Source: a virus. From it: a stretch of DNA of 36,703 nucleotides. Each line of letters opens with the position of its first letter. The first letter of the stretch is position 1. This document shows, piece by piece, positions 4,034-13,252 of this stretch. A program made the translations under genes and the position numbers. The stretch covers positions 1 to 36,703 of the IMG/VR virus record IMGVR_UViG_3300033273_000670; one strand, 5' to 3'. The notes under the pieces were generated by a model. That model was not told the origin of the DNA and did not search any database. It saw nothing but the letters and a program-made list of their open reading frames with translations.

Positions 4034-4063
4034 TTGACAGGGGGTAGGGAGATCGTATATATT
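4034..4063 (+). promoter_or_regulatory. Sigma70-like promoter before the small-gene island
   Basis: A perfect -35 TTGACA (4034-4039) is followed by a TATA-rich -10 region, read as TATATT at 4058-4063 (18-bp spacer) or TATATA at 4056-4061 (16-bp). No T4 late octamer is present. It would transcribe the gene at 4087 and those beyond, independently of the structural operon. Confidence 0.65.
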
Positions 4064-4365: not shown

Positions 4366-4521
4366 ATGAGACCAGAAACCCGTCAATCTATGGAAATGTT
4401 ATTCGCGGCGAAATGGAATTTACCGACAGCAGCCAGGAATTGCAATCTGACGGACAAGGAGATGAAGATCACGTTCAATGAATATTGTCGTTTAAATCCT
4501 GCTACATATGAATCTGATTGA
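4366..4521 (+). CDS. 51-residue protein, possible helix-turn-helix
   Basis: The ORF starts ATG-AGA-CCA at 4366 and stops with TGA at 4519-4521. The protein begins MRPETRQSMEMLFAAKWNLP. Its central part, from WNLPTAARNCNLT to TDKEMKITFNEY, has the spacing of a helix-turn-helix (helix, short turn, second helix). It overlaps the amidohydrolase start by 14 bases, which implies translational coupling, as that gene lacks its own ribosome binding site. A DNA-binding role is an inference from pattern only. It is short but has consistent codon use and context. Confidence 0.6.
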   Translation: MRPETRQSMEMLFAAKWNLPTAARNCNLTDKEMKITFNEYCRLNPATYESD

Positions 4522-5530
4522 ACGTATTGAAGAACTTTCGAAGACTTTACCAAGACCTGCTCATAGTGAAGCAGATACTAGAGGTAAATCACTTGTAATT
4601 AAGTGGATGTTAGAAGACGGTTTGACCGTCAATAAAGACATCTATGGTAATATAAGAGGTGTTCTTCCTGGTTCTGGTGCGCCTATTGTTACTGGTTCAC
4701 ATACCGATACTGTAGCAACTGCAGGAAAGTATGATGGTGCTTTGGGTGTTTTGGCAGGATTAGAAGCAGCCAGAAAACTGAAAGGTCAATTAAAGCATCC
4801 ACTAGAAATTGTAATCTTCGATGATGAAGAAAATACAATGAGTGGATCAATCGGGTATTGTTCAAAAAAACCTGACATCACTGCATTTATTGAACTCCAC
4901 GTTGAACAGGGACCAGTATTGGATGTTCAACAACTTGATATTGGTGTGGTTCAAGGTATTGTAGGACAGAGGAGATGTTCAGTATCTGTGTTTGGTCAAG
5001 AGAACCACGCAGGAACAACTCCTATGAATATGAGAAATGATGCTCTGGTCAAAACAGCAGAGATCATTACTTATATCAACGAAAAGGCACAAGAGGCAGA
5101 TGGTCTTGTTGCCACTGTGGGTGTGTTGGATGTGTCTCCCAACGCATTCAGTGTGATTCCTGGCAGAGTAGACTTTACTCTACAAGTCAGGGATTTGTAT
5201 GCTGACAAGATGGAAGAGTTTGTGGAGGATGTCTGTAAGAAGTTTGATCTTCGATATGAGATTCAACATCAATCAGAACCCGCATTGTGTGATCCCACTA
5301 TCATGGAACACATTTCAGACTCCTGTGGTGAACTGATGATGAGATATATTGAGATGCCTTCAAGGGCGTCACATGATGCTCAAAACTTCACTTTCTGTCC
5401 TATGGGTATGATCTTTGTTCCGTCTATTGGTGGAATCAGTCATTCTCCAAAAGAAGACACAACAGACGAAATGTGTTATAATGGTGTGGAGGTTCTTATT
5501 GAGACGATAAGACGAATTGATGAATCATAA
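4508..5530 (+). CDS. Compact M20-family amidohydrolase (N-carbamoyl-L-amino acid / allantoate amidohydrolase-like)
   Basis: This 340-residue protein keeps the metal site of the Zn-dependent hydantoinase/carbamoylase branch of M20: H65 and D67 in GSHTDT, D76 in KYDGALG, E107-E108 in FDDEE, H131 in IELHVEQGP and H312 in GGISHSP. Also visible are HAGTTPM (H167), the PNAFSVIPG segment (210-219) and ASHDAQ (H289). Family members hydrolyse N-carbamoyl amino acids, allantoate or ureidoglycolate-type substrates in the cytosol, releasing CO2 and ammonia; the exact substrate cannot be read here. Family proteins are usually near 410 residues. This one has only about 20 residues between DEE and ELHVEQ, where relatives carry a much longer insert. 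It overlaps the 51-aa gene. It is probably an auxiliary metabolic gene for nitrogen or pyrimidine/purine salvage (inference). Confidence 0.85.
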   Translation: MNLIERIEELSKTLPRPAHSEADTRGKSLVIKWMLEDGLTVNKDIYGNIRGVLPGSGAPIVTGSHTDTVATAGKYDGALGVLAGLEAARKLKGQLKHPLEIVIFDDEENTMSGSIGYCSKKPDITAFIELHVEQGPVLDVQQLDIGVVQGIVGQRRCSVSVFGQENHAGTTPMNMRNDALVKTAEIITYINEKAQEADGLVATVGVLDVSPNAFSVIPGRVDFTLQVRDLYADKMEEFVEDVCKKFDLRYEIQHQSEPALCDPTIMEHISDSCGELMMRYIEMPSRASHDAQNFTFCPMGMIFVPSIGGISHSPKEDTTDEMCYNGVEVLIETIRRIDES

Positions 5531-5621: not shown

Positions 5622-5966
5622 ATGCCTTACAAAGATAGAGAAAAACAGCGCCAATACCAGCAAGAATGGCATAAAGAACATAGAAGACCAGTAACGCTAC
5701 AGACTTCTCGTCAAAAAAGGAAACAAATGGTCCAAGACGCAAAGGTAAAACCTTGTGCGTGTTGTGGAAAAACATACCATTATAGTGCCATGGATTTACA
5801 TCACATTGACCCTACCAAAAAAGACGGTATGGTGGGACAGTTTGTAAAAAATGGAACTTACAAAACATTACAAGAAGAAATTGATAAGTGTACAGTGTTA
5901 TGTGCTATTTGTCACAGACTTCTACATGCCGGTCAAATTGAACTACCAGGGAGAATGGTGGAATAG
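5622..5966 (+). CDS. HNH endonuclease
   Basis: This 114-residue protein has a basic N-terminal helix (KDREKQRQYQQEW). The HNH fold then shows zinc cysteines C45-x-x-C48 and C94-x-x-C97, the catalytic DLHHIDP (H60/H61) and the closing CHRLLH (H98, H102). The length fits small free-standing phage HNH nucleases. Such genes nick or cut DNA and can act as homing elements. Its last five codons and stop lie inside the 5' end of the tRNA-Leu gene, so ORF and tRNA are physically fused. It sits behind a near-consensus sigma70 promoter. Homing near the tRNA locus is an inference; another HNH role cannot be excluded. Confidence 0.88.
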   Translation: MPYKDREKQRQYQQEWHKEHRRPVTLQTSRQKRKQMVQDAKVKPCACCGKTYHYSAMDLHHIDPTKKDGMVGQFVKNGTYKTLQEEIDKCTVLCAICHRLLHAGQIELPGRMVE

Positions 5967-6034
5967 GTAGACACACCGGCCTTAAAAGCCGTTGGGAGTA
6001 AAATCTCGTGCGGGTTCGACCCCCGCTTCTCCTA
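5949..6034 (+). tRNA. tRNA-Leu (anticodon UAA)
   Basis: The acceptor stem GGGAGAA (5949-5955) pairs with TTCTCCT (6027-6033), with one G-U. The D-arm is of leucine type (GGTAGACA), and the anticodon loop CTTAAAA carries TAA between CGGC and GCCG. A long class II variable arm (GGGA...TCTC) precedes the T-arm GCGGG-TTCGACC-CCCGC. A73 is the discriminator and no CCA is encoded. It reads UUA codons, which are commoner in AT-rich phage genes than in many hosts. Its 5' end overlaps the HNH stop. Confidence 0.95.
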
Positions 6035-6091: not shown

Positions 6092-6406
6092 ATGCCACTT
6101 ACACCAACCAAATATGACAAAATATACGTCAAATCAAGAAACCCATACAAGACACCTGAACCTCAGATATATAATGATGAAAAGGAAATTCAACTAAGGT
6201 TGTATTTTCGATGCGAAAGCAGTCACTACACAAAACACATGAAAGTCAACTTCTGGTATTCCAATGACATGGAAGAATGGAGATGGACACTCACCTCCGA
6301 TGAAGATGTATCACTTCAAGAGAGTGGAAATCGTGAAAAACTTCGTGATGCTATGAATGATGTTGCCAATACAGTAGAGTATCTACTTGACAACGATATG
6401 ATCTAA
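6092..6406 (+). CDS. Hypothetical protein, soluble, 104 aa
   Basis: The protein is mixed and charged, with aromatic-rich beta segments (LRLYFRCES, KVNFWYSNDMEEWRW) followed by a C-terminal amphipathic helix (REKLRDAMNDVANTVEYLL). It has no signal peptide, membrane helix or known catalytic motif. It has its own sigma70-like promoter and is followed by a rho-independent terminator at 6460, so it appears to be a single-gene unit. The family is not recognised. Confidence 0.7.
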   Translation: MPLTPTKYDKIYVKSRNPYKTPEPQIYNDEKEIQLRLYFRCESSHYTKHMKVNFWYSNDMEEWRWTLTSDEDVSLQESGNREKLRDAMNDVANTVEYLLDNDMI

Positions 6407-6459
6407 TGTTATAATACTAAAGAACCTTCCGTGTGAATTAGTGCCACTCTGTGGTAATC

Positions 6460-6485
6460 AACCTCCCTACAAGGGAGGTTTTTTT
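6460..6485 (+). terminator. Rho-independent terminator
   Basis: An 8-bp perfect stem AACCTCCC (6460-6467) / GGGAGGTT (6473-6480) with a 5-nt loop is followed by seven T residues (6479-6485). It ends the early-type island just before the late promoter of the giant virion gene. Confidence 0.92.
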
Positions 6486-11471: not shown

Positions 11472-12101
11472 ATGAGTAACATTGAATACATTCCTTTATT
11501 TCCTCAACTCGTAACCAAGACTGACACTAACCCTGAGTTCCTAGAATTCAGGGATAAGTTTATTGACTATGCGTATGAACTTAAATCAAAATCTCCTGGT
11601 ATTACGAGATCAAATAAAGGGGGATGGCACTCATCCACAAGTATTCTCGATGATGAAGACTTTCAGGATTGTGTAGGTTTTTTAGAAAAATATATCGGAC
11701 AAACTGTCCACACATTATTCAAGGATACCACCAAGGTCAAAGTTGATGGTTGTTGGCTCAATATCAACAATAGGGAAAGTGAGAATGTCATACACACTCA
11801 TCCAGGATGTCACTTATCAGGATGTTTATGGATAAAAAGTACAAATGACAGTGGTAAATTAAAAATCTATAGTGATAACGAATTTAATCATTTTAATTTG
11901 CACCAATCATACACTGAAAATGTGTTTCAAGAATTTTATTGTTCTCCACGTCATTTCTTTAAACCAATTGAGGGACATATGGTTATGTTCCCATCTGACT
12001 TAAAACACTCAGTTTATCAAAATGATGACCCATACGACAGAATTTCATTGGCATTTAACATCACTGTTCAACCACCAATAAATGAAGATGACAAATCTTG
12101 A
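11472..12101 (+). CDS. Putative 2OG-Fe(II) oxygenase (TIGR02466-like), 209 aa
   Basis: The sequence follows the TIGR02466/PF13759 pattern: NKGGWHSS near 49-55, WLNINNRESENVIHTHPG (H108, H110) leading to HLSGCLWIK, then EGHMVMFPSDLKHSV (H179), and RISLAFNI (R190, the expected 2-oxoglutarate salt-bridge Arg). Family members use Fe(II) and 2-oxoglutarate to hydroxylate an unknown substrate. Phage copies are frequent in cyanophages; proposed targets include virion or host proteins. First of three oxygenase genes that overlap head to tail, behind a sigma70-like promoter, with no visible Shine-Dalgarno. The acidic ligand of the usual HxD is not obvious here (HTH instead), which is normal for this subfamily as I recall it. 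Confidence 0.8.
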   Translation: MSNIEYIPLFPQLVTKTDTNPEFLEFRDKFIDYAYELKSKSPGITRSNKGGWHSSTSILDDEDFQDCVGFLEKYIGQTVHTLFKDTTKVKVDGCWLNINNRESENVIHTHPGCHLSGCLWIKSTNDSGKLKIYSDNEFNHFNLHQSYTENVFQEFYCSPRHFFKPIEGHMVMFPSDLKHSVYQNDDPYDRISLAFNITVQPPINEDDKS

Positions 12102-12696
12102 ATACCCTATAGTCATTGATAATATTCTCCCTCTAAATAAGTTCTTTGCGATAAGGGATGAATTTAGATATATCGGATGGTCACTCACCAACAGATCTTT
12201 AAGTGACGATGATTACATTTCTTGGGGTTGGAGAAAAAATGTCTTTCCAGCTAATTTGTTGTGTATGTACGATAGTGCTGGTATAATTAAACTTAAAATA
12301 CAAAGATATCTAAAAACAGGTTTGACATATATTAGATCACATGTAAATGGTCAAACTAGTGGTCAAGTGTCTAAAATTCATCATGATTATGATTATTCAG
12401 GAACATATACCGTTGTTGTATTCACTGAAAAAAACTGGAATACACAATGGGGTGGAGAGTTTGTATTTTTTGATAAAGATAGAGATGAATACAAATATGT
12501 GACGTATAAACCAAATAGAGGTGTTCTAATTCCAGCAGAACAAGAACATTATGGTATGTCTCCTAATCCAGCAACAAGTAGATTAAGAACTTCAGTCGCA
12601 TTTTCATACGTTACAGATGAAAAATTAGATACTTTTTTACGTACACACAAGGAACCTCGTCAATTTATTGGACCTACACATGGACCTGGATTTTAA
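12082..12696 (+). CDS. Putative 2OG-Fe(II) oxygenase (prolyl hydroxylase-like), 204 aa
   Basis: The core reads KIHHDYD (H100-x-D102 as iron ligands), YTVVVFTEKNWNTQWGGEF, then KPNRGVLIPAEQEHYG (H156, third ligand) and SRLRTSVAF (R169, cosubstrate Arg). This is the order of the P4Hc-type double-stranded beta-helix. The start at 12082 overlaps the preceding gene by 20 bases; ATG 12088 is an alternative start. The substrate is unknown. It is related to, but clearly diverged from, the oxygenase that follows: both have the ANGQT/VNGQT...H...QW-GE layout, so they are likely an old duplication. Confidence 0.82.
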   Translation: MKMTNLEYPIVIDNILPLNKFFAIRDEFRYIGWSLTNRSLSDDDYISWGWRKNVFPANLLCMYDSAGIIKLKIQRYLKTGLTYIRSHVNGQTSGQVSKIHHDYDYSGTYTVVVFTEKNWNTQWGGEFVFFDKDRDEYKYVTYKPNRGVLIPAEQEHYGMSPNPATSRLRTSVAFSYVTDEKLDTFLRTHKEPRQFIGPTHGPGF

Positions 12697-13252
12697 AAAA
12701 ATAAAAGTTATTGATGATTTTTTCTCAGAAGAAATTCGTAAACAGATCTGGGAATATCTTCACCCTACAAGACCATTATGGGCACTCACTGGTGGTGATG
12801 ACTCTCCAAATTGTTATAAGTTTTGGCATATAGATCATCTAGAGAAAGATGAATATTTTTCTAATTTTTTGTTTAGAAAAATTATCAAAAAACTTGGTGA
12901 TGAATTTAAAGATTATGGTGTTAATAGAATATATGCAAACGGTCAAACTGCTGGACAACATGGAAATGTTCATCCCGATGACGGCGATGTGACCTTTTTA
13001 TATTATCCAACACCAAAATGGATATATCAATGGGCGGGTGAATTAATTTTTTGTGAGTGTCCAGAACCAAAAGGTTTATGGGAAGGTCTTGATGAAAATA
13101 CCGTTGAATCACAAAAAATAGTAAGAGTCAGACCAAATAGAGCAGTATTATTTCCTGCAAAAATTTTACATCATGCAAATGCACCGTCTAGATACTTTGG
13201 TGATTTAAGAGTGTCATTAGCATACAAGTTGAAAAAACCGTGTAATAAATAA
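12668..13252 (+). CDS. Putative 2OG-Fe(II) oxygenase, 194 aa
   Basis: IYANGQTAGQHGNVHPDDGD gives H102-x-D104. It is followed by the WIYQWAGELIF strand, then RPNRAVLFPAKILHHANAP (H168 or H169) and RVSLAYKL (R181). It is the same fold as the previous gene. The start at 12668 gives a 29-base overlap; an in-frame ATG at 12680 (MDLDFKK) is equally plausible. The stop TAA at 13250-13252 overlaps a late promoter octamer for the next fibre gene. Last of the three-oxygenase unit; substrate unknown, possibly virion or host protein residues (inference). Confidence 0.82.
   Translation: MDLHMDLDFKKIKVIDDFFSEEIRKQIWEYLHPTRPLWALTGGDDSPNCYKFWHIDHLEKDEYFSNFLFRKIIKKLGDEFKDYGVNRIYANGQTAGQHGNVHPDDGDVTFLYYPTPKWIYQWAGELIFCECPEPKGLWEGLDENTVESQKIVRVRPNRAVLFPAKILHHANAPSRYFGDLRVSLAYKLKKPCNK
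13244..13251 (+). promoter_or_regulatory. T4-type late promoter overlapping a stop codon
   Basis: AATAAATA is embedded in the last codons of the third oxygenase, 35 bp before the fibre ATG at 13286. A GGGGAGAG ribosome-binding stretch sits between. Confidence 0.7.

Follow-up and report, generated by a model that had tools for sequence, protein, structure and literature searches.

A compact amidohydrolase of the M20 hydantoinase/carbamoylase family encoded by T4-like cyanophages

Introduction

Among characterised enzymes, those closest to the protein described here are the allantoate amidohydrolase (AAH) AllC from Escherichia coli (PDB 1Z2L, 2IMO, 4PXD), the ureidoglycolate amidohydrolase (UAH) from Arabidopsis (PDB 4PXB, 4PXE) and the L-N-carbamoylase from Geobacillus (PDB 3N5F). 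In addition, the roles of Glu131, Gln196, Arg291 and His385 have been described for the R. radiobacter enzyme (PMC10952681). Here, we analyse a 36,703-nucleotide stretch of viral DNA (IMG/VR record IMGVR_UViG_3300033273_000670, positions 1 to 36,703; hereafter the window), which carries a gene for a compact homologue of these enzymes. The features on which the comparison turns are as follows.

4508..5530, + strand: compact M20 hydantoinase/carbamoylase gene (allantoate/ureidoglycolate amidohydrolase-like), 340 aa, from profiles, model and structure matches
4832..4891, + strand: short spacer, formed by residues 109-128, that separates the DEE metal/general-base motif from ELHVEQGP (20 versus ~54-62 residues)
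5150..5152, + strand: codon of Ser215 (Asn of the NVIP motif in nearly all relatives; 13 residues before the carboxylate-binding Arg), from the alignment
5363..5365, + strand: codon of Arg286 (PSRASHDA versus SGAGHDA), from the alignment

AllC has the same fold and catalytic residues as the phage protein (Z 40-42, 35% identity), but it is ~411 aa long, with a 61-residue spacer and the SGAGHDA sequence. The Arabidopsis UAH (Z ~40, 36% identity) shares the SRA motif with the phage protein, but it has a long spacer, keeps the Asn and exhibits a Tyr (SRAYHD) where the phage protein has Ser288 (PSRASHD). As for the Geobacillus L-N-carbamoylase, it is the top sequence match (Z 42.2, 37% identity), but differs by its long spacer, the Asn in NVIP and the Gly in SGAAHD.

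In phages, a homologous gene is on record in Synechococcus phage S-B68 (QBP06029.1; MK016664.1, 38989-40050), where it is already annotated in GenBank as an N-carbamoyl-L-amino acid hydrolase. Its product, which is 53% identical to the window protein, is likewise compact, with a spacer of 20 residues, Ser215 and Arg286, but the gene is located in the replication region rather than between baseplate-hub and tail-fibre genes. Our literature search on the phage gene found no paper discussing it, and two cyanophage papers comparing the content in auxiliary metabolic genes (AMG), S-B68 included, do not mention it; homologous phage genes have so far been named from best matches alone. PHROGs has no family for the window protein, while BFVD has no viral member of the carbamoylase branch, only distant M20/M28 folds with 8-14% identity. 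The enzyme family itself is thus known, and what is new here is a compact clade of viral members, not described before, in which residues of the pocket are altered.

Results and Discussion

The gene is an uninterrupted open reading frame (ORF) of 340 codons, from ATG to TAA. The DNA around it matches that of Kyanoviridae of Synechococcus, which are T4-like phages of marine cyanobacteria: upstream genes match a tail-lysozyme/baseplate-hub PHROG, and a large downstream ORF corresponds to a tail fibre. The protein belongs to the hydantoinase/carbamoylase family, scoring 282.6 bits against TIGR01879 (cut-off 204), and it matches the Pfam models Peptidase_M20 (1.2e-25) and M20_dimer (3.4e-6). Its second-best profile model is NF058540, the N-carbamyl-L-glutamate hydrolase ErtE, and it falls below the curated cut-offs of all AAH equivalogs (NF006771, 323.9 versus 399; TIGR03176 (AllC), 212.8 versus 597.75). 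The AlphaFold2 model has a mean pLDDT of 96.1, and its best Foldseek match is the same Geobacillus entry that tops the PDB sequence search (E 5.6e-56). When the model was compared with 21 carbamoylase, AAH and beta-alanine-synthase entries, we obtained Z scores of ~39-44 with 333-340 residues aligned, versus Z <=29.6 for all other M20 enzymes. The predicted fold is a two-domain M20 fold, nearer to carbamoylase/AAH structures than to M20 peptidases. The initial annotation, made from the letters of the DNA, had proposed a phage-encoded member of this branch, which would have been contradicted by a place among M20 peptidases of a different substrate class. Both the assignment to the carbamoylase branch, by profile and structure comparison, and the phage origin hold.

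The most conspicuous feature of the protein is its compactness. The spacer between the DEE and ELHVEQGP motifs is 20 residues long in every cyanophage homologue measured, versus ~54-62 in nearly all ordinary homologues, stray values (46, 79) corresponding to one genuinely shorter row or to motif picking. The length of most ordinary homologues is 390-425 aa. The spacer accounts for ~36-41 residues of the deficit, and the remainder is made up by trimmed termini and two gaps, one of 9 residues in the lid region and one of 3 residues ahead of the second strand. This agrees well with the original estimates of an insert of about 20 residues and a protein about 70 residues shorter than the family norm. 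Although the usual ~55-60-residue helical spacer is absent from the window protein, it is no defining requirement of the family, and compact bacterial members also exceed the TIGR01879 cut-off.

The compact form is indeed not unique to phages, since an actinobacterial clade has the same truncation. Within a single actinobacterial class, to which the genome carrying locus L059 belongs, 73 of the 299 genomes sampled encode a homologue (E <= 1e-30), and 28 of 30 examined actinobacterial loci were taken as compact (318-354 aa, with spacers of 17-25 residues where the motif search could measure them). These compact proteins share the short spacer with the phage protein (~36-43% identity) and are encoded in a purine-catabolism neighbourhood, but they form a separate clade and keep the Asn and SGAGHDA. 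Around 20 compact bacterial loci, raw counts gave DUF3830 in 18/20, urate oxidase and an 8-oxoguanine deaminase-type amidohydrolase in 17/20 each, and adenine deaminase in 15/20. This gene context suggests that the compact bacterial enzymes act in purine catabolism. The initial view of a streamlined auxiliary enzyme stands in part: an AMG is plausible, in keeping with the dN/dS of ~0.08-0.16 reported below, but compactness as a product of phage streamlining is not supported in that form, because it is also found in the actinobacterial clade, although it arose there separately according to the trees below. Separately, we observed that a purine-catabolism cluster around the compact M20 hydrolase recurs in Actinobacteria (L153, L158, L160, L161 and related loci), the other members of which are DUF3830, urate oxidase (PF06181), 8-oxoguanine deaminase, adenine deaminase, aldehyde dehydrogenase and a PnrA-like transporter.

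In maximum-likelihood trees, the phage proteins form a clade with support of 100/99, and the compact bacterial proteins form another one elsewhere (100/100). The sister of the phage clade is an ordinary-length enzyme encoded on a Pseudanabaena plasmid (100/95; 99/94 with a changed taxon set), which is the one cyanobacterial long homologue in these trees, where branches are long. Trees in which phage and compact bacterial proteins are made to group are worse by 29.9 and 24.1 log-likelihood units (AU p 0.017 and 0.027, respectively), by which a single origin of the compact form was rejected, with the same long branches and single cyanobacterial sequence. Since the phage clade groups with the long Pseudanabaena enzyme and the joined clade is rejected, the spacer was probably lost twice, the loss in phages being probably independent of that in the bacterial clade. 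Two independent losses of one spacer would offer a natural experiment on the role of this segment in a large amidohydrolase family. If the phages had instead taken the compact gene directly from the actinobacterial clade, the truncation would have a single origin, which would fit the identical truncation site, the similar length and the purine-catabolism context. We consider this highly unlikely, both because of the tree topology and AU tests and because the compact bacterial clade retains Asn215 and Gly286.

The Pseudanabaena protein, a Zn-dependent hydrolase from strain ABRG5-3 (WP_126391068.1), shares with the phage proteins the SRA motif (Arg286), a shortened DEE-adjacent loop and ELHVEQG. 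It differs by its length (413 aa), a 56-residue spacer, an Asn at the position of Ser215 and its location in a urate-degradation cluster. Its gene adjoins that of an 8-oxoguanine deaminase, with hpxO, uraD, puuE (allantoinase) and uraH within ~12 kb. This setting, together with a score above the NF006771 AAH cut-off (437.9 versus 399), makes it a natural candidate for the allantoate step of the cluster. The phage gene was probably captured from a purine-breakdown lineage of a cyanobacterium-like bacterium, like the one found on cyanobacterial plasmids. A pattern search of IMG/VR from that one protein found no long-form viral relatives of the Pseudanabaena enzyme, and a genome-contig scan for homologues returned no cyanobacterium among the best 80 matches.

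As for the active site, His65, Asp76, Glu107, Glu108, His131, Gln134, His167, Arg228 and His312 are all found in the window protein, and are invariant in the 144 homologues that we aligned (27/27 alignable phage, 28/28 compact bacterial and 89/89 long homologues). The catalytic landmarks are therefore all present, as the initial annotation had stated for the metal site. Residue roles were carried over by homology from the R. radiobacter enzyme (PMC10952681), with positions matched by motif. On this basis, two metal ions would be bound by His65, Asp76, Glu108, His131 and His312, while Glu107 would activate a water molecule, the lid residue His167 would stabilise the oxyanion and Arg228 would bind the carboxylate of the substrate. 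The terminal carbamoyl group would then be hydrolysed to NH3 and CO2, leaving the amine.

In contrast to these invariant residues, two positions in the binding site set the phage clade apart. Position 215 is a Ser in 27/27 phage proteins, whereas it is an Asn in 87/89 long and 28/28 compact bacterial homologues (Asn in 115, Thr in one and Ser in one of 117). The conserved NVIP Asn of allantoate amidohydrolases is thus absent from all phage copies. Position 286 is an Arg in 27/27 phage proteins and a Gly in 113/117 bacterial homologues, among which only the Pseudanabaena protein (L103) has an Arg. Plant UAH also has an Arg at this position, inside SRAYHD, in the PDB sequence alignment. We take it that, in enzymes of this family, the carboxylate of the substrate is contacted by the Asn at position 215 as well as by the Arg 13 residues later, and that UAH/AAH specificity depends in part on the Tyr of SRAYHD. 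Because of the Asn-to-Ser and Gly-to-Arg changes in the phage clade, transferring an exact substrate from relatives would be unsafe, and the two altered residues may confer a different substrate. The sole Ser at position 215 among the bacterial homologues is found in a long actinobacterial protein, that of Nonomuraea terrae (L053).

Two scans of IMG/VR identified 28 loci with the phage gene, in addition to S-B68, in three genomic neighbourhoods. In the window and some other loci, the gene lies between baseplate-hub genes and the tail fibre; in other loci, it is flanked by sliding-clamp/pyrimidine-dimer-glycosylase-like genes on one side and the clamp loader on the other; in S-B68, it is flanked by mazG and a LOG-family gene. 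Apart from the latter, every identified neighbour falls among structural, replication, repair, HNH or 2OG-oxygenase genes, and no companion ureide-pathway gene was seen beside the enzyme gene among identifiable neighbours in the other loci. Since no other annotated ureide/purine catabolism gene was seen in 150/164 kb of S-B68 either, the phage appears to bring no pathway. Records of Listeria, Enterococcus, Salmonella and faecal "phages" also match the protein (27-36% identity, unannotated), but these are probably bacterial or contaminant DNA. Among the neighbours, the LOG-family gene in S-B68 (L021, 8289-8921; TIGR00730, nucleotide phosphoribohydrolase-like) follows the amidohydrolase with one small ORF between them. 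Elsewhere in the window (11472-13252), there are three consecutive 2OG-Fe(II)-oxygenase-like genes, two of which also match a PHROG labelled "DNA endonuclease V," probably because of inconsistent naming.

When the window gene was compared with other phage copies, NG86 dN/dS was ~0.08-0.16, the more divergent pairs being close to saturation in dS, and the gene is uninterrupted in every complete copy. The phage gene is apparently under purifying selection. As a host-type metabolic gene found among conserved phage genes and showing this mark of selection, it has the genomic attributes of a cyanophage AMG. A decaying passenger gene without function would fit the fact that a minority of cyanophages carry it and that no phenotype has been demonstrated. 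This is barely credible, however, considering the low dN/dS, the intact state of all complete copies, the invariant catalytic residues and the occurrence in three genomic contexts; the first and third of these are the grounds on which decay was rejected.

With moderate confidence, we favour the interpretation that the gene was captured and encodes an active ureide amidohydrolase, allantoate/ureidoglycolate-type, and that it would serve as an auxiliary nitrogen-release gene with an early-type promoter. T4-like cyanophages would have taken the gene from a purine/ureide-degradation lineage, after which the helical segment separating the DEE motif from HxEQG would have disappeared from the captured gene. 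During infection, hydrolysis of a ureide by the enzyme would release ammonia or an amino compound. The substrate would most likely be of the allantoate/ureidoglycolate type. This choice over N-carbamoyl amino acids comes from ancestry, not from direct evidence: because the closest relatives are found in a purine-catabolic setting, ureides are somewhat likelier than generic N-carbamoyl amino acids. Release of nitrogen from ureides is ecologically reasonable in view of the purine cross-feeding that has been proposed for marine microbes, in which allantoin and urea are intermediates (PMC11698098). If the enzyme is active, hydrolysis of ureides or carbamoyl-amino acids would join the functions carried by cyanophages, and it could be tested directly whether viruses in surface waters draw on nitrogen derived from purines.

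It is doubtful, but deserves serious consideration, that the enzyme is instead an N-carbamoyl-amino-acid or beta-ureidopropionate hydrolase of pyrimidine/hydantoin breakdown, which would recycle N-carbamoyl-beta-alanine or N-carbamoyl-L-amino acids into amino acids, CO2 and NH3. The Geobacillus L-N-carbamoylase heading both the PDB sequence and Foldseek lists, the S-B68 annotation, the retained carboxylate-binding Arg and the rank of ErtE among profile models all agree with such an activity, but best-match names weigh little because the family is functionally promiscuous. Moreover, the nearest phylogenetic relative sits in a urate-degradation cluster, and Arg286 is common to plant UAH but not to the sampled carbamoylases. 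Ser215, Arg286 and the lost spacer could also have reshaped the pocket for a substrate of no characterised member, for example a carbamoylated metabolite accumulating in infected cyanobacteria. The near exclusivity of Ser215 (27/27 phage versus 1/117 bacterial homologues), the fixed Arg286, the low dN/dS and the lack of companion ureide genes in the S-B68 sequence surveyed are consistent with this. We nevertheless find it unlikely: it comes with no candidate substrate, the remaining catalytic and carboxylate-binding residues are unchanged, and Ser215 also occurs in the actinobacterial long homologue. That a re-specialised phage clade mines a carbamoylated nitrogen pool closed to the cyanobacterial host itself seems, likewise, rather unlikely. 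We thus retain a captured ureide amidohydrolase as the preferred reading, and turn to how its gene is inserted and expressed in the window. The flanking features are as follows.

4034..4063, + strand: putative sigma70-like promoter, TTGACA-18-TATATT, ahead of the small-ORF cassette leading into the enzyme gene, from its motif
4366..4521, + strand: small conserved phage ORF of 51 aa, which overlaps the 5' end of the enzyme gene by 14 nt, from sequence and homology to Bellamy and S-SM2
5622..5966, + strand: HNH endonuclease ORF, directly 3' of the enzyme gene and running into the tRNA-Leu gene, from PHROG 3106/2255
5949..6034, + strand: tRNA-Leu(TAA), the right border, where homology to gene-less cyanophages resumes, from tRNA call and genome comparison

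Homology of the window to Bellamy and S-SM2, two cyanophages without the gene, stops at ~4487-4517 and resumes at the tRNA (5949). In these gene-less phages, the small ORF and tRNA-Leu are separated by a few hundred bases or less. This proximity of the flanks indicates that the enzyme gene and HNH ORF form a cassette at a variable site, and the HNH ORF might help mobilise it. The 51-aa ORF is likely the left border of the inserted cassette, its overlap with the enzyme gene likely providing translational coupling. As for the promoter, a canonical TTGACA-17-TATAAT is found at the corresponding upstream place in several relatives, as well as in gene-less S-SM2 and Bellamy. There is no T4-type late site (ATAAATA) upstream of the enzyme gene, although such sites are present before structural genes. 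These motifs suggest early expression from a host-type promoter. Farther downstream (6387-6480), a sigma70 promoter that fits the consensus perfectly (TTGACA-17-TATAAT with TG) is located ~45 nt 5' of a strong intrinsic terminator and a late promoter, the tail fibre coming next. Promoter and terminator are conserved in L163, L164, L167 and L169, with variable intervening bases, and this element could possibly specify a short non-coding RNA.
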